Source of the DNA: Collibacillus ludicampi
GTDB lineage: Bacteria > Bacillota > Bacilli > Tumebacillales > BOQE01
Assembly (NCBI RefSeq): GCF_023705585.1
Contig: NZ_BOQE01000001.1
Coordinates: 588,501-652,500, forward strand
Reading direction: 5' to 3'
DNA: 64,000 nucleotides
Positions 10,898 to 51,192 of this stretch are shown here, in pieces (the stretch's first letter is position 1; each line of letters starts with the position of its first letter). The notes below the pieces were generated by a model. It made no database searches. It worked only from the letters and a program-made list of their open reading frames with translations, and was not told the DNA's origin. Made by a program: the position numbers and the translations under genes.

Positions 10898-10942
10898 ATT
10901 ATCTGATGGCTCCTGCTTGCGGTATGGAGGGCCACTTTGAAA

Positions 10943-11190
10943 ACTTGTGCTTGGGTGGGTATATCGCTTTGCGCTTGGGTTCGATGAAGGTCGTCTTTGA
11001 GGCATATGCTTTGCGCTCATGCTCCGTGGAGGCCGTCTCGCACGGAATATGATCAATGTTGCGAGACGACCTTCAAGGTCGCTATTACGCGCAAAGCATA
11101 TGGCCCTCTTGAATGGTTTAAGGAAGCGGAACGACCCTCATCTCACCTCTGCGCTGCAAAGCGATACAACCCACCCAAAAGCCACTCTGT
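10943..11190. repeat. Nested palindromic repeat R2 (module A inside module B)
   Basis: The outer module B has arms at its two ends, TTGGGTGGGTATATCGC and GCGATACAACCCACCCAA. The complete module A (11001-11105) is embedded between them, with ATATGCTTTGCGC and GCGCAAAGCATAT and the core CGTCTCGCA/TGCGAGACG. Both modules recur elsewhere in the window, in the same nested order at 29.85 kb and inverted as a unit at 33.3 kb. No ORF in it is credible. Confidence 0.92.
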
Positions 11191-11271
11191 TGATTATGGC
11201 AGATTAAAATCTCTTCTGCTGGTGCCGCCCATGCTTAGTCAAAGTGATGTAGCGTAACCGTTTTATAAATA

Positions 11272-29011: not shown

Positions 29012-29108
29012 AAAAAAACGCCTGAGCATGCGCCCAGGCGGTCGGCATTCACTGATCACACTCCCCTGTGGTAACCCACTTCCGCCAGTCATGTGATCTG
29101 TCAATCTT
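29012..29108 (-). promoter_or_regulatory. ZTP (pfl) riboswitch upstream of folD
   Basis: The minus strand shows the conserved pfl-motif elements in order: ACTGGCG, GTGGGTTACCAC, GGGGAG and, after a short linker, GCCGACCGCCTGGGC. The last element overlaps the 5' arm of a terminator (CGCCTGGGC / GCTCAGGCG then seven T, 29012-29040). This is the known architecture in which ZMP/ZTP binding to the 3' hairpin prevents terminator formation. folD is one of the classical targets of this class. A second CCGCCTGGGCATG lies just after the terminator, near the ribosome site. Confidence 0.94.
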
Positions 29109-29154: not shown

Positions 29155-29760
29155 TTATTTCGTTAACACGTATACTTCGGGATAGGACTCTTCATATTTC
29201 TTGATCGCATCTTCATATTGCAATGTGATGCCGATATCATCCAATCCTTTCAGCAACAGTTCCCGTCGATACGGATCGACCGCAAAGTCGCAGGCGAACC
29301 CGTGGTTGTCATATATTTTGTTCTCTTCTAAATTAACCGTCAGCTGATAACCTGCTTCTTGGGCACGCCGGAACAACTCGTCTACCGTTTCTTCCGCCAA
29401 GCGAATCGGCAGAATCCCATTTTTAAAACAGTTATTATAGAAAATATCAGCGAAGGAAGGTGCGATGATCACGCGAAAGCCGTAATCAAGCAAAGCCCAT
29501 GGTGCATGTTCGCGGGATGACCCGCAACCGAAGTTATTGCGTGCAAGAAGGATCGTTGCCCCCTTGTATTGTTCTTGGTTTAGGACAAAATACGGATTCG
29601 GCTTTCCCTCTTGATCGAAACGCCAATCATAAAAAAGGAACTGTCCAAATCCTGTTCGTTCGATCCGTTTTAAAAATTGTTTCGGGATGATCGCGTCAGT
29701 ATCGACATTGACACGGTCAAGCGGCGCGACAATTCCTGTATGTTGAACGAATGGTTCCAT
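29155..29760 (-). CDS. leuD: 3-isopropylmalate dehydratase small subunit
   Basis: Small (swivelling) subunit of isopropylmalate isomerase, which with LeuC converts 2- to 3-isopropylmalate in leucine synthesis. The 201-residue protein has [17 protein letters not shown] near the N-terminus and [15 protein letters not shown] (about residues 75-89), both typical. The ATG at 29760 follows GAGGAGG. A longer in-frame reading into the upstream palindromic repeat is spurious. Between leuC and leuD lies a 499-base gap filled by repeat R3, unusual for a pair that is normally adjacent. Confidence 0.97.
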
Positions 29761-29798
29761 AACAACTCGTCCTCCTCGTTTTGAAAATTTGTGATGTA

Positions 29799-30185
29799 AG
29801 GGCATATGCTTTGCGTTCATGCTCCGTGGAGGTTGCGAGACGACCTTGAAGACTAGTGCTTGGGTGGGTGTATCGCTTTGCGCTTGGGTTCTTTAGGCCA
29901 TATGCTTTGCGCTCATGCTCCGTGAAGGCCGTCTCGCACGGAATCATTAATCAAATGTTGCGAGACGACCTTCAAGGTCGCTATTACGCGCAAAGCATAT
30001 GGCCTCTTGATCGATTTAAGGAAGCGGAACGACCTTCAACTCACCTCTGCGCCGCAAAGCGATACAACCCACCCAAAAGCCACTCCGTTGAAGATGGCAG
30101 TTTTAAATCCTTCTTCTTGCACAAGAAACTTGAGACATGAGTGGCAACTTTCAAAGTCGCTGTTTCACACAAAGCATATGCCCCA
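29799..30185. repeat. Triple-nested palindromic repeat R3 (A-B-A) between leuC and leuD
   Basis: Three concentric palindromes. The outermost is a worn module A: GGGCATATGCTTTGCG at 29800 and CAAAGCATATGCCCC ending at 30184. Inside it is module B (TTGGGTGGGTGTATCGC near 29860, GCGATACAACCCACCCAA near 30075). Innermost is a good module A (29896-30003; GGCCATATGCTTTGCGC and GCGCAAAGCATATGGCC). The loop is CGGAATCATTAATCAAATGT. Further A-like fragments follow to about 30240, touching the end of leuC. Confidence 0.9.
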
Positions 30186-30258: not shown

Positions 30259-31665
30259 TCAGTCAAGCCACTCGCGCACATCGACAAAATGCCCGGCAAT
30301 CGCCGCCGCGGCGGCCATCGCAGGACTGACGAGATGCGTTCTTCCTCCTCGTCCTTGTCGGCCTTCAAAGTTTCGGTTGGAAGTGGATGCACAACGTTCT
30401 CCCGGTTGCAAAATATCAGGATTCATACCGAGGCACATGCTGCAGCCGGCTTCGCGCCATTCAAAGCCCGCTTCGATAAAGATACGATCCAGGCCTTCTT
30501 GTTCCGCTTGGCGTTTCACCCTTTGCGAACCTGGTACCACCATAGCTCTCACGTGAGGAGCCACTTTCCGCCCTTTCGCGATCTTGGCGGCAACACGCAA
30601 GTCTTCGATGCGGCTATTGGTGCATGAGCCAATGAACACGCGATCGATCTGAATCTCTTGAATCGGTGTCCCCGGCGTGAGACCCATATACTTGAGTGCG
30701 TTTTCGACGGCTTTTCGCTCGTTTTCAGAGGCGAAAGATAGCGGATCCGGCACCCTGTCGGTAATACCCACCCCCATGGAAGGATTGGTTCCCCATGTGA
30801 CTTGCGGCACGATTTCGGAAGCATCGATTTCAACGCGGAAGTCATATTCCGCTCCCTCATCTGTGGCCAGCAGCCTCCACTCTTCGACTGCACGATCAAA
30901 CGCTTCTCCCTTCGGTGCATATTCCCGCCCTTGCAGGTAGTCAAACGTTGTGTCATCCGGTGCGATTAATCCTGCTTTGGCTCCCGCTTCGATCGACATG
31001 TTACAGATCGTCATCCGCTCTTCCATCGACATGGCACGAATCGCTTCACCCGTGTATTCGATCACCGTTCCCGTTGCAAAATCGGTACCATATTTAGCGA
31101 TAAGAGCCAAAATCAGATCTTTCGCCGTCACTCCGCGTTGCAGTCTGCCGGTAACATGCACCTCGAGAGTCTTGGGTTTGGACTGCCACAAGCATTGCGT
31201 TGCGAGCACATGTTCCACTTCACTCGTACCGATACCGAATGCCAATGCGCCAAACGCACCGTGTGTAGAGGTGTGGCTATCCCCGCAGACGATCGTTTTT
31301 CCTGGAAGTGTCAATCCCAATTCGGGACCAATCACGTGGACGATTCCCTGATCCGGACTGTTTAGATCACACAGAGGAATGCCAAATTCCTCACAATTGA
31401 TCGCCAACGTTTCCAATTGTTTCGCGGAAATGGGATCTTCGATCGGCAAGGAACGGTCGGTCGTAGGCACGTTGTGATCCACGGTGGCGAACGTCAGATC
31501 GGGCCTCCGTACGCGCCGTCCCGCCAAACGTAATCCTTCAAACGCTTGAGGTGAAGTCACTTCATGAACCAGGTGCAAATCGATATATAAGAGACTCGGT
31601 TTTCCTTCTTCTTGCACGACTACGTGTCGATTCCAGATTTTTTCGAACATGGTTTGTGGTTTCAT
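30259..31665 (-). CDS. leuC: 3-isopropylmalate dehydratase large subunit
   Basis: Aconitase-family large subunit carrying the 4Fe-4S cluster. The 468-residue protein has [34 protein letters not shown], the cluster cysteine in [14 protein letters not shown] and the paired cysteines in [10 protein letters not shown], then [12 protein letters not shown]. The cluster residues all appear present. The ATG has GGGCGGGGAGAG upstream. leuA and leuB are not in the window, so these two subunits stand apart from a full leu operon; the divergent LysR gene 187 bases away is a candidate regulator. Confidence 0.97.
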
Positions 31666-32906: not shown

Positions 32907-33155
32907 GTGGATCGTGTCGAAAAAGGATTGAGAGAAATCGCGGAAGATCTGTGGAAACGAGGGGACGGTACCTATACGGTCGATGACTATTATGAAATGG
33001 TGCGTGCGACTTATGAAAGCATGCGACGCCATCACGGGGAAGCTTTCGCCCAATTTTCGAATGAAACGATTCTTGCAGTTATCCGCAAACAGATGAACGA
33101 ATTAAGCCGCTTTCGTAACGTGGAAAAGTTAATGAAAAAAAGGCATCATATCTGA
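32907..33155 (+). CDS. Small hypothetical protein
   Basis: An 82-residue charged, helical protein (VEKGLREIAEDLWKRGDGTY, then TVDDYYEMVRATYESMRRHH), not recognised. The GTG at 32907 is 7 bases after AAAGGAG; alternative upstream starts lack a ribosome site. It follows the LysR gene by 88 bases and could be co-transcribed. No motif or membrane segment. Confidence 0.6.
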   Translation: MDRVEKGLREIAEDLWKRGDGTYTVDDYYEMVRATYESMRRHHGEAFAQFSNETILAVIRKQMNELSRFRNVEKLMKKRHHI

Positions 33156-33303
33156 CCCCTTCAACAGGTGGAAAACACCATGGCTGGAGGTAGGTCTAAA
33201 GACTCATTCTCCTGTCAATCTTTCATGATAGCCACCCATGACGCAAGTTTACGCCATCAGAAGATGAAAAGTTTCTTGTGAGGGAAGAAGTATAAGGCTA
33301 TCT

Positions 33304-33556
33304 CAAGAAACGGAGTGGCTTTTGGGTGGGTTGTATCGCTTTGCGGCGAAGAGGTGAGTTGAAGGTCGTTCCGCTTCCTTAAACCGCTCAAGAGGCCATA
33401 TGCTTTGCGCGTAATAGCGACCTTGAAGGTCGTCTCGCAACATTTGATTAATGATTCCATGCGAGACGACCTTCAAGGTCGCTATTACGCGCAAAGCATA
33501 TGGCCTAAAGAACCCAAGCGCAAAGCGATACACCCACCCAAGCACTAGTTTTCAAG
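33304..33556. repeat. Nested palindromic repeat R4 with a perfect 47-bp inverted repeat
   Basis: Same A-in-B arrangement as R2 and R3 but inverted as a unit. Module B arms are CTTTTGGGTGGGTTGTATCGC and its partner GCGATACACCCACCCAAG. The inner module A has arms 33393-33439 and 33460-33506 that are exact reverse complements over 47 bases, with a 20-base loop. Each arm contains its own small palindrome CGACCTT-G-AAGGTCG. Homology to A flanks continues to the left to about 33250 (CATCAGAAGATGAAAAG). Confidence 0.95.
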
Positions 33557-33604
33557 ATAGCACGAATTGTCCATATGGGCAGTTTTCATGGCTAAAAAGA
33601 CATC

Positions 33605-34033
33605 TCATCCTGCCTTTACAAGCAATTTTAGAATTCCCCGAATCACCGTTTCTTCGGTTTGTTTCTTCACTTCCGATCTCACCGTAAGCAATCCGCCTGA
33701 CTTACGCTCCTGCTTTTCCAGTACTTCCAGTTCCACATGGATCGTGTCGCCGATAAACGTCGGCGCAGTGAAACGAAGATGATCGATTCCATAAAACGCT
33801 TGAATGATTCCGGGTACAAACTCCATCAAACCGGTGGAAATCGATAAAACCAACAGACCATGAGCGATTCGCTGACCAAATGGTGTTCCTTTCGCATACT
33901 CCTTGTCCGTGTGCAACGAAAAGAAATCCCCGCTCACACCGGCAAAGTTCACAATATCCGTTTCAGTGATCGTTCTTCCACGGCTCACCCATGTTTCCCC
34001 AACCTCGTACAGATCAAACGTTCGGTTGAACAT
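33605..34033 (-). CDS. MaoC-like dehydratase, hotdog fold
   Basis: A 142-residue MaoC/R-hydratase-like protein that would hydrate enoyl-CoA or enoyl thioesters. Family features are RTITETDIVNFAGVSGDFFS (catalytic Asp/His region near residues 20-40, with DFFSLHTD), then GQRIAHGLLVLSISTGLM. ATG with GGAGGGAGC upstream. It stands alone; no beta-oxidation genes are adjacent, so its role (fatty-acid or PHA precursor metabolism) is open. Confidence 0.88.
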   Translation of the reverse strand: MFNRTFDLYEVGETWVSRGRTITETDIVNFAGVSGDFFSLHTDKEYAKGTPFGQRIAHGLLVLSISTGLMEFVPGIIQAFYGIDHLRFTAPTFIGDTIHVELEVLEKQERKSGGLLTVRSEVKKQTEETVIRGILKLLVKAG

Positions 34034-50706: not shown

Positions 50707-50984
50707 CAGAGGATGAATACTTTCTTGAAAATCTGTAGTTTGGCGGGCGTATGCTTTGCGTTCGCGCTCCGTGAAGGTCGTCATTGCGGGCATATGCTTG
50801 GCGTTCATGCTCCGTGGAGGTCGTCTCGCTTGGAATAAGTTTAGTTGTTGCGAGACGACCTCCAAAGTCGCTGTTTCACGCCAAGCATATGCTCCTTTAA
50901 CATTCCAATGGAAGCGAGACGATCTCCAAAGTCGCTGTCTCACGCAAAGCATTACGCCCACCAAAAGACACTTTTCATCCTCTG
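50707..50984. repeat. Nested palindromic repeat R5 (module A inside module A)
   Basis: The outer arms begin CAGAGGATGAA (50707) and end TTCATCCTCTG (50984), with GGCGGGCGTATGCTTTGCG / CGCAAAGCATTACGCCC. A second complete module A (50787-50895) sits inside. In this inner copy the arm reads GCTTGGCG and its partner CGCCAAGC, where all other copies have GCTTTGCG / CGCAAAGC, so both arms changed together and pairing is kept. Confidence 0.92.
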
Positions 50985-51037
50985 AGGGCGCGGCTTGATG
51001 CATAGTTAGCTTTCTTGTATACTTCTGTGGTTGCCAC

Positions 51038-51192
51038 AAGAAACTGAGTAGCTTTTGGGTGGGTTGTATCGCTTTGCAGCGCAGAGGTGAGTTGAAGGTC
51101 GTTCCGCAAAGTCTGGTAAGAATCCGAGCGGAACGACCTTCATCGAACCCAAGCGCAAAGCGATACACCTACCCAAGCACTATTTCTCAAAG
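51038..51192. repeat. Palindromic repeat R6 (module B alone)
   Basis: A single module B, without an inner A. Arms are CTTTTGGGTGGGTTGTATCGC and its partner GCGATACACCTACCCAAG; the inner core is GAAGGTCGTTCCGC / GCGGAACGACCTTC with a 16-base loop. It shows that B is an independent unit and that A insertion is optional. It ends 30 bases before the mnmA stop. Confidence 0.92.

Follow-up and report, generated by a model that had tools for sequence, protein, structure and literature searches.

R4, a copy of a dispersed repeat in the window (the whole 64,000-nt stretch of the Collibacillus ludicampi genome that was analysed), has a hairpin whose second arm, V in other copies, was likely rewritten from its own U arm by a replication template switch. 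This reading is carried by the identity of the two arms, the uniqueness of the arrangement, the ancestral state seen in sister copies, a reciprocal event at another locus, and the unchanged orientation of the spacer, all of which the sequences show. The copying of arm onto arm probably took place by template switching within a single folded strand, i.e., as quasi-palindrome correction; we infer the fold-back within one strand and the role of the plus strand as the nascent strand of R4. With U copied onto V at one locus, V copied onto U at another, and relatives that resolve the ancestral states all present in one genome, the family provides an unusually clean natural record of this process. 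The mechanism itself is already known, and the nested-hairpin family in which it has acted is the more unusual part.

A perfect hairpin among mismatched copies

The two arms of the R4 hairpin are reverse complements at 47 of 47 nt and enclose a 20-nt spacer, ACATTTGATTAATGATTCCA, exactly where the first-pass annotation had placed a perfect inverted repeat (Table 1). The 114-nt hairpin has a predicted RNA fold of -94.2 kcal/mol, whereas its shuffles average -27.8 (z = -19.6); its DNA fold reaches -64.3 kcal/mol (z = -22.7). For the equivalent hairpin of the sister copy R3, the values are -69.1 (RNA) and -42.6 kcal/mol (DNA). Judged by these predicted folds, R4 may form the cruciform and the very stable RNA hairpin that had been suggested for it. 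Escherichia coli tolerates an interrupted palindrome of 85 bp but cleaves one of 246 bp in each round of replication (PMC3315005); since R4, at 114 bp, lies between these two sizes, its persistence is plausible by analogy.

Table 1. Positions of R4, its parts, and related repeat copies in the window
Feature	Position	Strand	Remarks
R4, entire repeat copy	33228..33560	+	333 bp; base family I, one U/V tier; ATAG at each end
A arm, 5' side of the outer stem	33324..33369	+	Pairs with the C arm
U arm, native; putative template of the copy event	33393..33439	+	Identical 47-mer in R3 and at C1:1613516
Spacer (apical loop)	33440..33459	+	Orientation as in sister copies
Second arm, reverse complement of U	33460..33506	+	All other copies but one have V opposite U
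Core of the replaced tract	33475..33488	+	Sister ...TTCACGGAGCATGAGCGC, R4 ...TTCAAGGTCGCTATTACGCGC; R4 3 nt longer; aligned to L050 and L097
C arm and right end TTTTCAAG	33507..33556	+	
R3, sister copy with ancestral U-loop-V	29845..30131	-	Hairpin 29895-30005; inverted relative to R4, 3.4 kb away
Repeat copies in the window	near 10937-11191, 29799-30181, 33228-33560, 50747-51178		

The earlier claim that other copies have two unlike arms also holds: the 119 innermost U/V hairpins that could be read comprise 117 of the U-loop-V form, a lone U-loop-U (R4), and a lone V-loop-V. When the whole genome was searched with exact patterns, R4 again emerged as the sole U-loop-U, and a single V-loop-V was recovered at C1:2711493-2711555 (also delimited as C1:2711488-2711560; L178 483-555), where a perfect 43-bp stem sits in a two-tier element with a normal outer tier. 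The U-loop-V norm combines a conserved mismatched internal loop with a perfect stem of at most 19 bp. Of the 86 hairpins read first, the 85 other than R4 had perfect stems of no more than 19 bp (median, 16), and the addition of 35 further loci contributed a single extra long one, the 43-bp stem of the V-loop-V hairpin.

The hairpins nearest to that of R4 are those of R3 (C1:618412) and C1:1613516, which share with it the left arm, nearly all of the spacer, and an unusual GGCCATATGC basal stem. Both of these sisters have a V arm, and therefore V was the arm replaced in R4. For the mirror event, the ancestral state is resolved in the same manner by the nearest relative of the V-loop-V hairpin, C1:446912, whose first 73 nt are identical to it and which retains the U arm. 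That R4 instead represents an ancestral or separate U/U subfamily, with V being of later origin, is hardly credible, as its closest relatives all carry V, V is found in 117 of the 119 hairpins, and V variants track U variants by lineage.

Perfect hairpins are error-prone in sequencing, and reads or consensus building might have collapsed two diverged R4 arms into a perfect palindrome. We regard such an artefact as improbable, given that the 3.99-Mb main contig, obtained despite more than 150 repeats, suggests long reads and that the assembly kept U and V distinct in 117 other hairpins whose arms are nearly identical. Furthermore, the replaced tract in R4 has 3 additional nt and clean borders on either side, and the mirror-image V-loop-V constitutes an independent locus.

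R4 is intergenic and breaks no gene; the two neighbouring ORFs are convergent, one of them running rightward to its end at 33155 and the other, a MaoC-domain gene at 33605-34033, running leftward. This position would suit a perfect hairpin selected for better working, for example, as a barrier between convergent genes, but the stem is not followed by a T-tract and nearly all copies have retained the mismatched internal loop, which makes selection of this kind a most improbable origin of the R4 hairpin.

Probable arm copying by a template switch

The correction of quasi-palindromes by template switching is an established form of bacterial mutation (PMC7202029), and template switching has also been proposed to make and maintain RNA hairpins (PMC8794818). 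As expected of a quasi-palindrome template switch, the inverted repeat of R4 is more perfect than that of its ancestor, and its second arm is the complement of its own U. R4 is the sole copy in which U takes the place of V, and the donor was therefore a U arm read in the inverted sense.

In the mechanism that we propose, the inner tier of R4 would have started as an ordinary quasi-palindrome consisting of U arm, 20-nt spacer, and V arm. Having just copied U and the spacer, the nascent strand would fold back via the matching apical stem, copy from U rather than from the chromosomal V, and switch back to its regular template on reaching the matching basal stem. The outcome would be the conversion of the 13-nt internal-loop segment of V into the 16-nt complement of U, and of a mismatched hairpin into a perfect one of 47 bp. 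The apical and basal stems, i.e., the proposed switch sites, are perfect in the sisters bar one wobble or mismatch. The spacer is inverted neither in R4 nor in the V-loop-V copy, and spacer inversion has been tied to switching between two molecules (PMC8604942). A fold-back within one strand would account for the tract that was replaced, for a spacer that has kept its orientation, and for the existence of a reciprocal product. With dnaA at C1:1487474, a change of skew at that point, and negative skew at the R4 locus, the nascent strand would be the plus strand in R4, which is the lagging strand there, and by the same logic the leading strand in the V-loop-V copy. We thus infer that the first-copied arm lay on the lagging nascent strand in one event and on the leading one in the other; with n = 2 events, we claim no bias.

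A different source for the new arm would be conversion or recombination between copies, in which an inverted U arm located elsewhere supplied the sequence that now stands in the place of V in R4. The 47-mer shared with R3 and C1:1613516 makes a donor in another copy possible as far as the sequence alone is concerned, R3 is both inverted and nearby (3.4 kb), and chimeric hairpins, whose two arms come from different families (L145_3751985 and L141), show that copies recombine. Nevertheless, the register needed for such an event aligns only approximately 86 bp, with flanks that lack homology beyond the hairpin on both sides; the exact match ends where R4's own left arm ends; and the reciprocal event took place elsewhere with the same geometry. 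We therefore consider a donor in another copy unlikely.

The first-pass annotation had read R4 as the product of recent arm-to-arm conversion or replication-slippage repair. The copying of one arm onto the other is borne out by the unique U-loop-U arrangement, the V-bearing sisters, the reciprocal V-loop-V, and the retained spacer orientation. Template switching accounts for these data better than generic slippage does. The 47/47 identity does not show the event to be recent, because the stems of the sister copies are near-perfect as well outside the internal loop.

Among the closest counterparts to the proposed template switch at R4 is quasipalindrome mutation in E. coli (PMC7202029), in which an imperfect inverted repeat is likewise perfected in a single multi-base change with one arm as the template; however, the R4 event is deduced from one genome rather than observed as it mutates, and its arms greatly exceed the 18 bp of the lacZ reporter. 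Similarly, in RNA hairpins (PMC8794818) and in yeast arm homogenisation (PMC8604942), one copy event produces a multi-base compensatory change, with the spacer either kept or inverted. In contrast to those cases, the change in R4 abolishes a conserved mismatched internal loop, and both reciprocal products are present among sister copies within a single repeat family.

A family of nested hairpins

R4 belongs to a dispersed repeat with more than 150 copies in the 4.09-Mb genome. Arms were parsed in 152 stretches around matches in this one genome, and the numbers of elements given here are minima. At least 190 near matches to a 22-nt end motif were obtained, compared with 0 in the reversed control; the left-end motif has at least 63 matches, and a second base family has at least 57. 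Elements start with RTAG-YCMCCCATGCC... and end with TTTTCAAG-RTAG. Between these ends, a leader with a small GCCGCAAGCGGC hairpin is followed by a bracketed arrangement, A (U (U ... V) V) C, in which A and C form the basal pair, the nested tiers are each built from a U and its partner V, and the A/C base encloses zero to two U/V tiers. One, two, and three stem levels per element were found for at least 109, 45, and 7 apices, respectively. Base family II has a different base stem, GGTGGGCGTAATGC, and shares the U/V arms. Each U/V tier consists of a basal stem, a mismatched internal loop, and then a common apical stem, GGTCGTCTCGC; the internal loop is conserved, being of the TAATAGCGACTTTG type on the U side and of the CTCATGCTCCGTG type on the V side. 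The chimeric hairpins mentioned above, L145 (C1:3751985) and L141 (C1:3701154), each have one arm of family I and one of family II, a sign of recombination between copies.

The basal stems of the U/V hairpins show strong covariation, in that the arms of a given hairpin correspond to each other more closely than do arms drawn from different copies, an excess that is inflated by kinship among the copies: 89% of cells are paired, compared with 83% (maximum, 85%) after the right arms have been permuted across copies, and 38% of the 14-bp stems are fully Watson-Crick, compared with 7% (maximum, 17%). The internal loop is nonetheless still mismatched in 98% of U/V hairpins. Full-arm template switching alone would erase this mismatch, and therefore something keeps the loop mismatched. 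Either selection or the spreading mechanism maintains it, or switches of a full arm happen seldom compared with copying. Since the family separates two sources of covariation, the respective shares of mutation and selection in hairpins become testable.

On a more tentative and rather unlikely reading, the repeat may be a self-nesting hairpin, whose conserved apical stem (GGTCGTCTCGC / GCGAGACGACC) would act as a socket for new tiers. In this scenario, switching and recombination at the socket would grow towers of hairpins and rewrite arms, selection or the spreading mechanism would keep U and V mismatched, and R4 and the V-loop-V copy would be the visible failures of this asymmetry.

Distribution and relation to known repeats

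The family appears to be undescribed so far. Within the genomes searched, it is confined to this one, being absent from 40 relatives and from 400 genomes of the class, and it found no match in collections of plasmids, phages, and viral contigs, or in Rfam at the gathering threshold. A lone exact 20-mer among 85,000 genomes, from a Bacteriovoracaceae metagenome-assembled genome, showed no wider similarity and was judged to be a chance match, and the sub-threshold Rfam matches to miRNA precursors are generic to any perfect hairpin.

In overall plan, the elements resemble the BOX elements of Streptococcus pneumoniae and Streptococcus suis (PMC3049150), which share an A-Bn-C arrangement, variable inner hairpins, many copies, and a stem-loop fold, with S. 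suis BOX also offering two end types with common inner modules. The main difference is that the inner modules described here are nested (UU|VV, CVV|UUA, AUU|VVC), whereas those of BOX are in tandem; moreover, we found no relationship to BOX in either sequence or Rfam.

The putative manner of spread recalls single-strand transposition of the REP or IS200/IS605 type (PMC6006769, PMC3116915). As in those elements, an RTAG tetranucleotide lies near a small hairpin and the top strand is chiefly on the lagging-strand template. The latter applies to 115 of 164 elements (P = 2.7e-7), a bias that is partly confounded with gene direction and that persists where the flanking genes are convergent or divergent (25 of 35; P = 0.017). 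The orientation of R4 places it in the minority class. RTAG occurs at both ends of the elements, and among 13 to 14 informative copies its left-right concordance did not exceed that of shuffled pairs, giving no signal of a target-site duplication. Unlike REP/REPIN and IS200/IS605 ends, our elements are much longer, and some 8 nt separate their RTAG from the hairpin. We do not claim membership in this group, because no Y1 transposase that might serve as a mobiliser was found in the genome (no match to PF01797). The one TnpB locus, on contig 2, matched the repeat profile weakly and in part (29 profile positions; E = 0.07), which we judged to be due to chance.

The R3 copy is part of a cluster of repeat modules at 29799-30181, which lies between genes encoding Aconitase and Aconitase_C domains (30259-31665 and 29155-29820, both on the minus strand); the two genes probably form one operon. 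Also in the window, Rfam identified a ZMP/ZTP riboswitch at 29025-29102 and a T-box leader at 1484-1702, both on the minus strand.
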